Assembly (NCBI RefSeq): GCF_018263905.1
Contig: NZ_JAAFZU010000001.1
Coordinates: 360,228-424,227 of the forward strand
Source of the DNA: Loktanella sp. SALINAS62
GTDB lineage: Bacteria > Pseudomonadota > Alphaproteobacteria > Rhodobacterales > Rhodobacteraceae
DNA length: 64,000 nt
Direction of reading: 5' to 3'
In this document: in pieces, positions 57,753-60,097 of the stretch
Position numbering within the stretch: position 1 is the stretch's first letter
Layout of the letters: every line of letters begins with the position of its first letter
Notes under the pieces: generated by a model
Database searches by the model: none
What the model saw: only the letters and a program-made list of their open reading frames with translations
Told to the model about the DNA's origin: nothing
Program-made: the position numbers and the translations under genes

Positions 57753-58535
57753 TTACATCGCGGGCAGGATCGTGACGTCGCGGATGTCGCCATCCACGCC
57801 TTCGATCATGCCGACGCTGGTGGCGGCACCGGTTTCCAGATCGACGGAATACAGCGTGTTGCCGTTCACCAGCCACGCCATATTGTCCAGCGCGTCACTG
57901 GTTTGTACATCGAACGCATAGATCTCGCCCGGTGCATCCAGACCCAGCTTGCCAATGGCGGCCAGCGTGCCGTCGTTGGGCGATGTCTGCTGGATGACCG
58001 CCACGATGGTCGCGTCGATGTCATACATCGCAGTCGATTCCGGCTGGCCAAAGCTGTTGATGTAGGCGGCAGCGACGATGTCGGGGGTTTCACCGACGTG
58101 CATGTCGTCTTCGGCCCAGTCAAGGCTGCCGTCGACGGTGACCTCACCTGTATCGACGTTGACGCGGTGGTTCGTGGTGCCGGTCATGAAACGCAGACGG
58201 TCGGCGGCTGGGTTGAAATCCACGATAACAGGCGCATCGGCGACGGGCAGCGGGGTATCCATCGTCGACATTTCGGTCGCTTCGCCGGTGGCGGTGTCGA
58301 TGCTGACGACTGTCATATCGGGCGTCACACCGACCAGCGTTTTGTTGGCAGGGCGCAGGTCGATACCCAGCAGGCTGTCCACACCGGCAACATCCATCGT
58401 GCCGGACACGGCCAGCGTTTCGGTGTCGAACATCACCAGCGTCTTTTCCCCGACAAGCCCGACGGCAGGTGCGGCCAGCGCCGCGGTCGCGGTCAGGGCA
58501 AGTGCGGACGTGGAAAGTGCTGCAATACGAAACAT
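57753..58535 (-). CDS. Exported DUF4394 protein
   Basis: A 260-residue protein with a signal peptide (MFRIAALSTSALALTATAAL then AAPAVG) and a DUF4394 domain. Repeated beta-propeller-like blocks are seen (DSLLGIDLRPANKTLVGVTP; VDFNPAADRLRFMTGTTNHR; AAYINSFGQPESTAMYDID). Function unknown; relatives are periplasmic or surface proteins. ATG 58535 has AAGGA eight bases upstream. Transcription is probably driven by the ECF promoter at 58591-58619, so it belongs to the regulon of the divergent sigma factor. Confidence 0.88.
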   Translation of the reverse strand: MFRIAALSTSALALTATAALAAPAVGLVGEKTLVMFDTETLAVSGTMDVAGVDSLLGIDLRPANKTLVGVTPDMTVVSIDTATGEATEMSTMDTPLPVADAPVIVDFNPAADRLRFMTGTTNHRVNVDTGEVTVDGSLDWAEDDMHVGETPDIVAAAYINSFGQPESTAMYDIDATIVAVIQQTSPNDGTLAAIGKLGLDAPGEIYAFDVQTSDALDNMAWLVNGNTLYSVDLETGAATSVGMIEGVDGDIRDVTILPAM

Positions 58536-58590: not shown

Positions 58591-58619
58591 GAAGACACGC
58601 CAAACCGGAAAACGGATGC
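58591..58619 (-). promoter_or_regulatory. Candidate ECF sigma promoter for the DUF4394 gene
   Basis: On the minus strand GCATCC (58619-58614), a 16-base spacer, and TGTCTTC (58597-58591). It matches exactly the two boxes and the spacer of the plus-strand copy at 58708-58736. The start codon is 55 bases downstream. Confidence 0.75.
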
Positions 58620-58707
58620 AGCGGACCGCAACTTTTTCGGAATTATTCTGCCCGCCCTATGCCCCGCCCGAATAACAGGGCCGCGCGCGCTGTCTTTGCA
58701 GTCAGCC

Positions 58708-58736
58708 GCATCCAATCGGCGGTCCCGCGTGTCTTC
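58708..58736 (+). promoter_or_regulatory. Candidate ECF sigma promoter for the sigma/anti-sigma operon
   Basis: GCATCC (58708-58713), 16 bases, TGTCTTC (58730-58736). It is identical in boxes and spacing to the divergent copy. The spacers differ apart from their last bases, so this is not a simple duplication. It implies autoregulation. Confidence 0.75.
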
Positions 58737-58838
58737 TACTTGACGGGAGAGAACATGTTGCATCACGCCCTGAAAGCACCGACACCTTGCCAGACCATGA
58801 TGACGCCCGGCGTCTGGATGAACAAAAGGACCGCCGTC

Positions 58839-59390
58839 GTGACAGACCACAACCAACAGCTTCACGATGCGCTGCACGATTGCAGGGCCGGGCGGCAGAC
58901 CGGCGTGGAACGGATCATCGCACTGGAAGGTCCGCAACTGCTGGGCGTCGCGACGCGAATGCTGGGCCGCCGCGATCTGGCCGAAGAGGCGTTGCAGGAC
59001 GCGATGGTGCAGGTCTGGCGCAAGGCGGCGCAGTTTTCCGACGCCAGCGGATCGGCACGCGGCTGGATCTATGCGATCCTGCGCAACCGCTGCCTGAACA
59101 TTCTGCGCGACGGCAAGCGGATCAGCCTGCTGTCACCGGACGAACTGACCACCCTGCAAGAGGCGCGACAACGCAGCGTGCCCGCACAGGACTGGGAAAT
59201 TCTGGCCGGTGCATCCAAACTGCAAACCTGTCTGCGCGGACTGGAAGATCAGGCCCGCACAGCGATCCTGCTGGCCTATGTCGGCGGCTATAGCCACGGC
59301 GAAATCGCAGCACGGCAGGATGTGCCACTGGGCACAACGAAATCATGGATCCGCCGTGGCCTTGCATTCCTGAAGGAGTGCCTGACATGA
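58839..59390 (+). CDS. ECF RNA polymerase sigma factor
   Basis: A 183-residue sigma-70 family ECF factor. Region 2 includes LLGVATRMLGRRDLAEEALQ and DAMVQVWRKAAQFSDAS; region 4 includes LAYVGGYSHGEIAARQDVPL and GTTKSWIRRGL. The GTG start at 58839 follows AAAAGGA by eight bases, and the AGG codon inside that site is otherwise rare here. An in-frame ATG at 58755 with GGGAGAG just upstream, close behind the promoter, would add 28 residues and cannot be excluded. It overlaps the anti-sigma gene (ATGA). Confidence 0.9.
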   Translation: MTDHNQQLHDALHDCRAGRQTGVERIIALEGPQLLGVATRMLGRRDLAEEALQDAMVQVWRKAAQFSDASGSARGWIYAILRNRCLNILRDGKRISLLSPDELTTLQEARQRSVPAQDWEILAGASKLQTCLRGLEDQARTAILLAYVGGYSHGEIAARQDVPLGTTKSWIRRGLAFLKECLT

Positions 59391-60097
59391 CCGTGTTGCC
59401 CGATCATCTGACGGCGTTGTCCGACGATTACGTGCTGGGATTGCTGTCCGAATCTGAAACCATGCTGTTCGAGGAAGTGATGCAGCGCGACCCCGCCGTC
59501 GCGGCCTATGTCGGCGATCTGCGTGACCGATTGCTGCCGTTGGACTTGTCGGCATCTGTGCAGGATCTGCCTGCCGGGTTCGCGGACGCTGTGCAGGATC
59601 GGCTGGGGGCCGTAAAACAACTGCCGGCGGCGCCCCGGTCGCACCCGAAACCGGCCAACGATCCACATCGTCCACGTGCATGGCGCGGTGCGTTGGCGGC
59701 CAGTATCGTCGCGCTTGCCATAGGGTTCGGTGCGGGCTGGCAGCGGCCCCTGCCCGATCCCGTGGTCGTCGCTGTTCTGGTGGATGACGCAGGTGTGCCG
59801 CAGGCCGTGGTCGAAGATTACGGCAACGACACCGCCACGGTGCGTTTTGTGGCTGATATCGATGTGCCCGCAGATCGCAGCCTGCAGGCGTGGACCCTGC
59901 CGTCTGCCGAACTGGGTGCCACGTCGCTGGGGGTATTGGACGGTGCGCGATCTACCGTTCTGGATTTTGGGGATCTGCCTGATCCCGAAGCCCAGCAACT
60001 GTATGAGGTCACGCTGGAACCACTGGGCGGTTCACCCACCGGCAGGCCGACCGGTCCGATCATCGGCAAGGGGTTCGCTGCCCTGCAGGATAGCTGA
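59387..60097 (+). CDS. Membrane anti-sigma factor (RskA-like)
   Basis: A 236-residue protein: cytoplasmic N-terminal anti-sigma region (LSDDYVLGLLSESETMLFEE; VAAYVGDLRDRLLPLD), one membrane helix (RGALAASIVALAIGFGAGW, about 101-119) and a periplasmic RskA C-terminal domain (SLQAWTLPSAELGATSLGVL; YEVTLEPLGGSPTGRPTGPI). It lacks the His-Cys-Cys zinc motif of ZAS anti-sigmas. It probably holds the ECF factor until an envelope signal arrives. Confidence 0.9.
   Translation: MTVLPDHLTALSDDYVLGLLSESETMLFEEVMQRDPAVAAYVGDLRDRLLPLDLSASVQDLPAGFADAVQDRLGAVKQLPAAPRSHPKPANDPHRPRAWRGALAASIVALAIGFGAGWQRPLPDPVVVAVLVDDAGVPQAVVEDYGNDTATVRFVADIDVPADRSLQAWTLPSAELGATSLGVLDGARSTVLDFGDLPDPEAQQLYEVTLEPLGGSPTGRPTGPIIGKGFAALQDS

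Follow-up and report, generated by a model that had tools for sequence, protein, structure and literature searches.

The window analysed here, a stretch of 64,000 nucleotides from Loktanella sp. SALINAS62, contains a compact cassette of three genes arranged around an intergenic region of 219 bp. On one side, the minus strand encodes a DUF4394 protein (57753-58535) with a signal peptide read from its sequence; its match to PF14339 (E 2.7e-63) scores 213.8 bits against a gathering cut-off of 29.6, placing it within the family, and its other Pfam match, ZirS_C, lies below threshold. On the other side, the plus strand carries the gene of a SigK-like ECF sigma factor (58755-59390, from the predicted start), whose regions 2 and 4 are recognized by PF04542 (E 1.1e-15) and PF08281 (E 8.9e-13) and whose product contains the cysteines C159 and C209. 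A likely ribosome-binding site, GGGAGAG, can be read from the sequence at 58745-58751 (+), just ahead of this gene. The gene of an RskA-type anti-sigma factor follows at 59387-60097 (+), identified by its RskA_C domain (PF10099, E 5.5e-19), its start overlapping the sigma stop codon through ATGA.

Sequence-profile searches against the PDB yielded no convincing relative for either the DUF4394 protein (best E 0.42) or the anti-sigma factor (best E 0.76). The AlphaFold2 model of the DUF4394 protein is all-beta, with 20 strands (pLDDT 87.6, pTM 0.84). Its first Foldseek match is a Toxoplasma microtubule-associated chain, and many of the top matches are LRP6, ROS1, Atg18 and WD40 domains (TM 0.38-0.53), which we take to be propeller proteins; according to the model, the DUF4394 domain is probably a small beta-propeller. 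The model of the anti-sigma factor (mean pLDDT 83.6, pTM 0.49) comprises N-terminal helices, a helix at about 100-118 and then the RskA_C beta domain, the middle helix being a likely transmembrane segment through which the protein would be inserted in the membrane.

Two ECF-type promoter sites lie between the DUF4394 and sigma genes, pointing outward. The DUF4394-facing site (58591-58619, -) reads (T)GCATCC as the -35 box, a spacer of 16 and (G)TGTCTTC as the -10 box, while the sigma-facing site (58708-58736, +) reads GCATCC, N16 and TGTCTTC, leaving 88 bp with 39% AT between the -35 boxes (58620-58707). Both are exact matches to GCATCC-N16-TGTCTTC, the only two in the whole 64 kb, confirming the preliminary description in its claim of two outward copies with the same boxes and spacer length. 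The identity in fact extends further than was stated there, to GCATCC-N13-GCGTGTCTTC, with 16 bases alike. When up to two mismatches are allowed, the window holds six matches, four of them with two mismatches, compared with a mean of 2.05 in shuffled sequence, and six were reached by 3 of 100 shuffles. The earlier judgement that such a pair is unlikely by chance also held up: under a first-order Markov model of the 219-bp intergenic region, with the pair defined post hoc as 6-N(14-18)-7 with identical boxes, a non-overlapping outward pair arose in 28 of 20,000 simulated sequences, and one in any orientation in 46 of 20,000. A looser estimate of 363 in 4,000 was set aside, as it had also counted overlapping and self-palindromic pairs.

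Across the 3.83 Mb genome, GCATCC-N15-GTGTCTTC occurs in perfect form twice, both times at the window sites. Four further copies carry one mismatch, three of which (L117, L119, L120) lie within coding frames, and the fourth (L118) is intergenic, beyond the 3' end of a gene and about 710 bp upstream of the next start on the same strand; it could be a further target site. At lower stringency the matches multiply, with 54 at up to two mismatches against 16 for a reversed control pattern. The short form GCATCC-N15-17-TGTC, proposed earlier as a genome-wide search, did produce an excess (82 matches, where the reversed control gave 11), and yet its matches were not accepted as targets. The sites inspected in context, namely the four with one mismatch, L123 and L126 with two, and L241, L243 and L244, overlap coding frames with the exception of L118, and a wider regulon built on weak matches was not adopted. 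Base and codon composition is one possible explanation of the excess over the control, and weaker sites could still extend the regulon; since the weak matches exceed the reversed control, the very small regulon predicted here is claimed at high stringency only. A related form, TGCATCC-N15-17-SGTA, stays at chance level in this genome (7 matches against 5 in the control), and a laxer motif finds a match in at least 152 of 295 genomes of the family.

Relatives of the locus were gathered with the sigma protein alone as query, and 52 loci selected by sigma similarity were counted (L031, which is the window, L034, L036 and L061-L109). Excluded before counting were L032, L033 and L035, which share contigs with L061, L062 and L065, as well as L037-L060, taken as distant paralogues, and L110-L114, whose matches were poor or partial. 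DUF4394, sigma and anti-sigma genes occur together in 51 of the 52. The one departure, L109, from a metagenome-assembled genome, has a DUF7282 protein (L109:3318-3734, -) in the place of DUF4394, and no DUF4394 match was found in its genome by a type of search that cannot prove absence. No other neighbouring gene is widely shared within about 3-4 kb on either side of the trio, the largest additional cluster being an ABC transporter ATPase found at 7 loci. Neighbour clusters present at 36, 24 and 18 loci were discarded, being taken as antisense frames of the trio on the basis of one representative each.

The promoter facing DUF4394 is the constant one of the pair. Of the 52 loci, 50 have GCATCC-N15-17-xGTC in this position. 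The strict form TGCATCC-N15/16-GTGTCTT gives 39 matches in 32 of 51 genomes, 37 of them at the cassette, with none for the reversed control. These 51 genomes all carry the sigma/anti-sigma pair, 50 of them with DUF4394, and represent the relatives other than the window's own genome; the 19 genomes lacking a strict match do so because their boxes differ by at least one letter. With the trio and the strict motif so closely associated, the existence of a sigma/anti-sigma/DUF4394 module, as originally proposed, is well borne out. Off the cassette, one strict match lies within alaS and the other near a second DUF4394-like gene. The latter, L175:2999-3027 (+), belongs to the genome of locus L072 (Cereibacter flavus) and adjoins a second DUF4394 gene (L175:1924-2886, -) whose product has a PEP-CTERM-like end, although the motif is oriented away from this gene.

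A second set of 25 loci, nearly all found through protein similarity (L177 through the motif; L249 is close to first-set loci), comprises 19 divergent cassettes, 5 in other gene orders, and L250, which has no sigma match. All 19 divergent cassettes have GCATCC toward DUF4394, and 18, judged by eye, have an xGT core as the -10 box on that side, L205 being the one without. Among six cassettes of other gene order, the site was found upstream of DUF4394 in L213 and L252 (an Alloyangia plasmid), and the scan found none before DUF4394 in L180, L215, L217 and L253. DUF4394 cassettes are plasmid-borne in L248, L249 and L251 (Paracoccus, Allorhizobium), the plasmid of L249 being typed as conjugative. 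In a sample of the phylum, DUF4394 was present in 20 of 398 genomes with 24 matches, 9 of which, the window included, are adjoined by sigma and anti-sigma genes.

Toward the sigma gene the picture is more varied. By a rule that accepts GCATCT beside GCATCC, the -10 box on this side is of TGTC type in 15 of the 52 loci, including the window, of GGTA type in 24, and in 13 the rule finds no site; GGTATAG accounts for 16 of the 24. In the second set, GCATC(C/T) points toward the sigma gene in 14 of the 19 divergent loci. The GGTA-type loci (L079-L084, L087, L088, L090-L094, L096-L098, L100-L105, L107, L108) have GGTATAG, GGTAGAG, CGTATAG or GGTATAA after GCATC(C/T), and retain GTGTC on the DUF4394-facing side. 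Thus, the earlier claim that the sigma factor drives both its own operon and DUF4394 is well supported by comparison in its DUF4394 half, and its extension to matching boxes on both sides holds for the window but not for the many relatives whose sigma-facing site is altered or absent by the rule, which makes autoregulation the less conserved half. The distribution of the sites indicates that the promoter tracks divergent DUF4394 genes first, the sigma gene second, and other arrangements only sometimes.

These counts lend themselves to another reading, in which DUF4394 alone is under this sigma factor and the sigma operon is transcribed by another form of the polymerase, leaving little or no feedback; the clearest case would be Rhizobiales, whose -10 box is often GGTATAG. 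The altered or missing boxes in the first set and the five second-set loci without GCATC(C/T) toward the sigma gene are what it would predict, but the window and most of its Rhodobacterales relatives have closely matching sites, and GCATC(C/T) is retained at equal spacing even where the -10 box differs. Furthermore, TGCATCC-N15-17-GGTATAG is nearly confined to the module, with 13 of its 17 matches in 36 genomes at the cassette and a single match for the reversed control, so that this reading appears quite improbable. One sigma factor may read two kinds of -10 box, or one promoter may be stronger than the other.

The spacing of the boxes bears on a further alternative. In 34 of the 38 loci having both sites, the -35 boxes are 19-26 bp apart, within an overall range of 19-99 bp, forming a back-to-back inverted repeat, GGATGCA...TGCATCC, that might be bound as an operator by some other, dimeric regulator rather than serve as paired -35 boxes. 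The gap varies across the full range, however, while GCATCC and the -10 box stay 16-17 apart. Moreover, a lone box precedes DUF4394 in the five second-set loci that have no sigma-facing copy, and in two operon-order cassettes as well, and the flanks of about 3-4 kb hold no widely conserved gene for a further regulator, all of which makes an operator very improbable. Between paired promoters, the gap is richer in AT than its surroundings in 37 of the 38 loci (mean 65% versus 41% elsewhere), the window, atypical also in the width of its gap, being the sole locus whose gap is no richer; an AT-rich gap would be compatible with an upstream element of RNA polymerase common to both promoters.

Comparison with known systems leads to SigK. 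In the PDB, the sigma factor finds its best match in SigK (4nqw, E 1.9e-13), barely ahead of RpoE (2q1z, E 2.1e-13). C159 and C209 are present in all 50 sigma sequences compared, taken from the 52 loci with L104 and L106 left out, and align with SigK Cys133 and Cys183 in 4nqw at an equal spacing of 50 residues. According to the available part of one paper, this cysteine pair is found in 94% of ECF18, 56% of ECF19 and fewer than 2% of other ECF families (PMC7509140), and in our sequences it points to the ECF18/ECF19 groups. The same source, in the part available, describes a sigma site before mpt83 in the mpt83-sigK-rskA cassette, in Yersinia too, and an RskA that can inhibit as well as activate SigK (PMC7509140). 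Like that cassette of Mycobacterium and relatives and of Yersinia enterocolitica, the present one has the gene of an exported protein beside those of an ECF sigma factor and an RskA-type anti-sigma factor, with a sigma-type site upstream of the exported gene and the SigK cysteine pair. It differs in that the partner is a DUF4394 (PF14339) protein rather than an MPT83-type or fasciclin protein, in that the genes are mostly divergent with back-to-back promoters, and in the low similarity of the sigma factor to SigK, which scores 89.7 bits with the NCBIfam profile NF007228, far under its cut-off of 226. The partners MPT83 and MPT70 are of the fasciclin-domain type. Assignment to the mpt83-sigK-rskA cassette proper was rejected on the non-fasciclin partner and the sub-cut-off score; judging by the cysteine pair and the RskA_C anti-sigma neighbour, the unit appears to be a variant of this cassette, with an exported DUF4394 protein standing where the fasciclin protein would be.

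Among other ECF systems, E. coli RpoE-RseA and Rhodobacter RpoE-ChrR are autoregulated ECF sigma factors with cognate anti-sigma factors, and have unlike anti-sigma domains, unlike promoter boxes and larger regulons. The Brucella BcrS system, in the available part of its description, belongs to ECF16 and has differing boxes (PMC8315932). The available portions of ECF papers on S. meliloti and Bradyrhizobium contain no GCATCC-initial word as a -35 box, and the one GCATCC-initial word there, in PMC6180224, is an ECF29 -10 box. An article on Azospirillum RpoE6 names fasciclin, in its available part, in a reference only (PMC12826043), and what is available of PMC8103513, PMC7406223, PMC10880074 and PMC3597554 provides background on the topic only.

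The preferred reading, to which we assign a probability of roughly 80%, is that of a self-contained cassette of the SigK/RskA kind, in which a sigma factor held by RskA would act at two outward promoters to raise both itself and the exported DUF4394 protein. The RskA-type membrane anti-sigma factor would hold the ECF sigma factor until an envelope signal, a redox signal sensed through the cysteine pair, or both, set it free, and the freed sigma factor would direct RNA polymerase to the two promoters with GCATCC as the -35 box and (G)TGTC as the -10 box; that this one factor reads both is an inference. One promoter would then raise sigma and anti-sigma factor together, a positive feedback carrying its own brake, and the other would yield the exported DUF4394 protein, apparently the one dedicated output of the cassette. 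The steps of holding and release are drawn from the SigK literature, and the promoter steps from conservation. What the protein would do in the periplasm is a guess, binding or protection being the candidates.

DUF4394 had been cast in the preliminary description as either the output of the cassette or the partner sensed by the anti-sigma factor. The former role fits the conserved DUF4394-facing site. In the latter role, DUF4394 would act on RskA in the periplasm, as its ligand or by feedback, and the cassette would measure something through it. This role gains from the predicted all-beta, propeller-like fold, since propeller folds often serve as binding scaffolds, as well as from the close linkage between DUF4394 and the sigma/anti-sigma genes. 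In a quick, midpoint-rooted tree of 90 sigma rows, computed without bootstrap and containing several long branches, a branch with an SH-aLRT of 96 separates a side of 69 rows, 67 of which have DUF4394; four further DUF4394 rows lie outside it. L109 sits inside this DUF4394 group despite its DUF7282 partner, as does L209, which has no DUF4394 within 1.5 kb. Co-variation, however, gave no specific signal for such sensing: across 48 rows (L088, L104, L106 and L109 left out), the partial distance correlation with DUF4394, given sigma, was 0.25 for RskA_C against 0.26 for the cytoplasmic domain, and the order flips between Rhodobacterales (0.48 versus 0.22) and the others (0.20 versus 0.41), the Rhodobacterales subgroup having been assigned by hand, using record titles and the order of the loci, with L071 on opposite sides in the site count and in this test. 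The unrelated exported families of related cassettes, described below, fit an exchange of outputs at least equally, and a ligand role for DUF4394 therefore seems unlikely.

A sample of the class extends the comparison. A relative of the sigma factor at E <=1e-24 is present in 43 of 385 genomes, and among 29 new loci from this sample, 11 have DUF4394 and 18 do not. In eight of those 18, nine proteins adjoining the sigma gene were scanned, giving fasciclin (PF02469) in L212, L214 and L229, Ferritin_2 in L219 and L216, the latter also with a cytochrome c, DUF4331 in L226, cytochrome P460 in L230, and a protein without a family in L223. The upstream scan covered 200 bp before the start of the partner gene (183 in L216), the start being an internal ATG in L212 and L229. 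GCATCC-N14-18-xGT(A/C) points toward the partner gene in five of seven cases (L212, L214, L229, L219 and L226), with CGTA as the -10 box in each, and none was found in the 183 bp and 200 bp scanned before the partner genes of L216 and L230; shuffled copies of the stretches contained such a site in 9-25 of 2,000.

The fasciclin/RskA/SigK-like cassettes of alphaproteobacteria (L212, L214, L229, L252, L253) share a related sigma and anti-sigma pair with the present cassette, differing in the PF02469 partner and, in L212, L214 and L229, in a -10 box that is CGTA-like instead of TGTC; there, a TGCATCC site lies 74-97 bp upstream of the adopted fasciclin start. At the fasciclin genes of L252 and L253 (the latter on a Paracoccus plasmid), the scan detected no site of this kind. 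L252, on an Alloyangia pacifica plasmid (NZ_CP022191.1, 135410-141120), has sigma, anti-sigma and fasciclin genes followed in tandem by DUF4394, sigma and anti-sigma genes.

A tentative extension of the preferred reading, still rather doubtful, treats the GCATCC promoter together with the sigma/anti-sigma pair as the constant chassis of few-output, SigK-like cassettes in alphaproteobacteria, in which the exported protein is exchangeable among DUF4394, fasciclin, DUF7282, ferritin-like and DUF4331 proteins. Within the DUF4394 branch, this protein would in addition report back to the RskA domain, giving a closed periplasmic loop driven by the back-to-back promoters, with the AT-rich stretch between their boxes.

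A search of the open-licence literature found no paper on DUF4394, on PF14339, or on DUF4394 together with a sigma factor, and the cassette gives this family a regulatory context not found in print there. SigK/RskA cassettes are best known through the antigens MPT70 and MPT83, and the present comparison suggests that they are a chassis of more general use for exported proteins, through which the roles of those proteins may be approached by comparing their partners.
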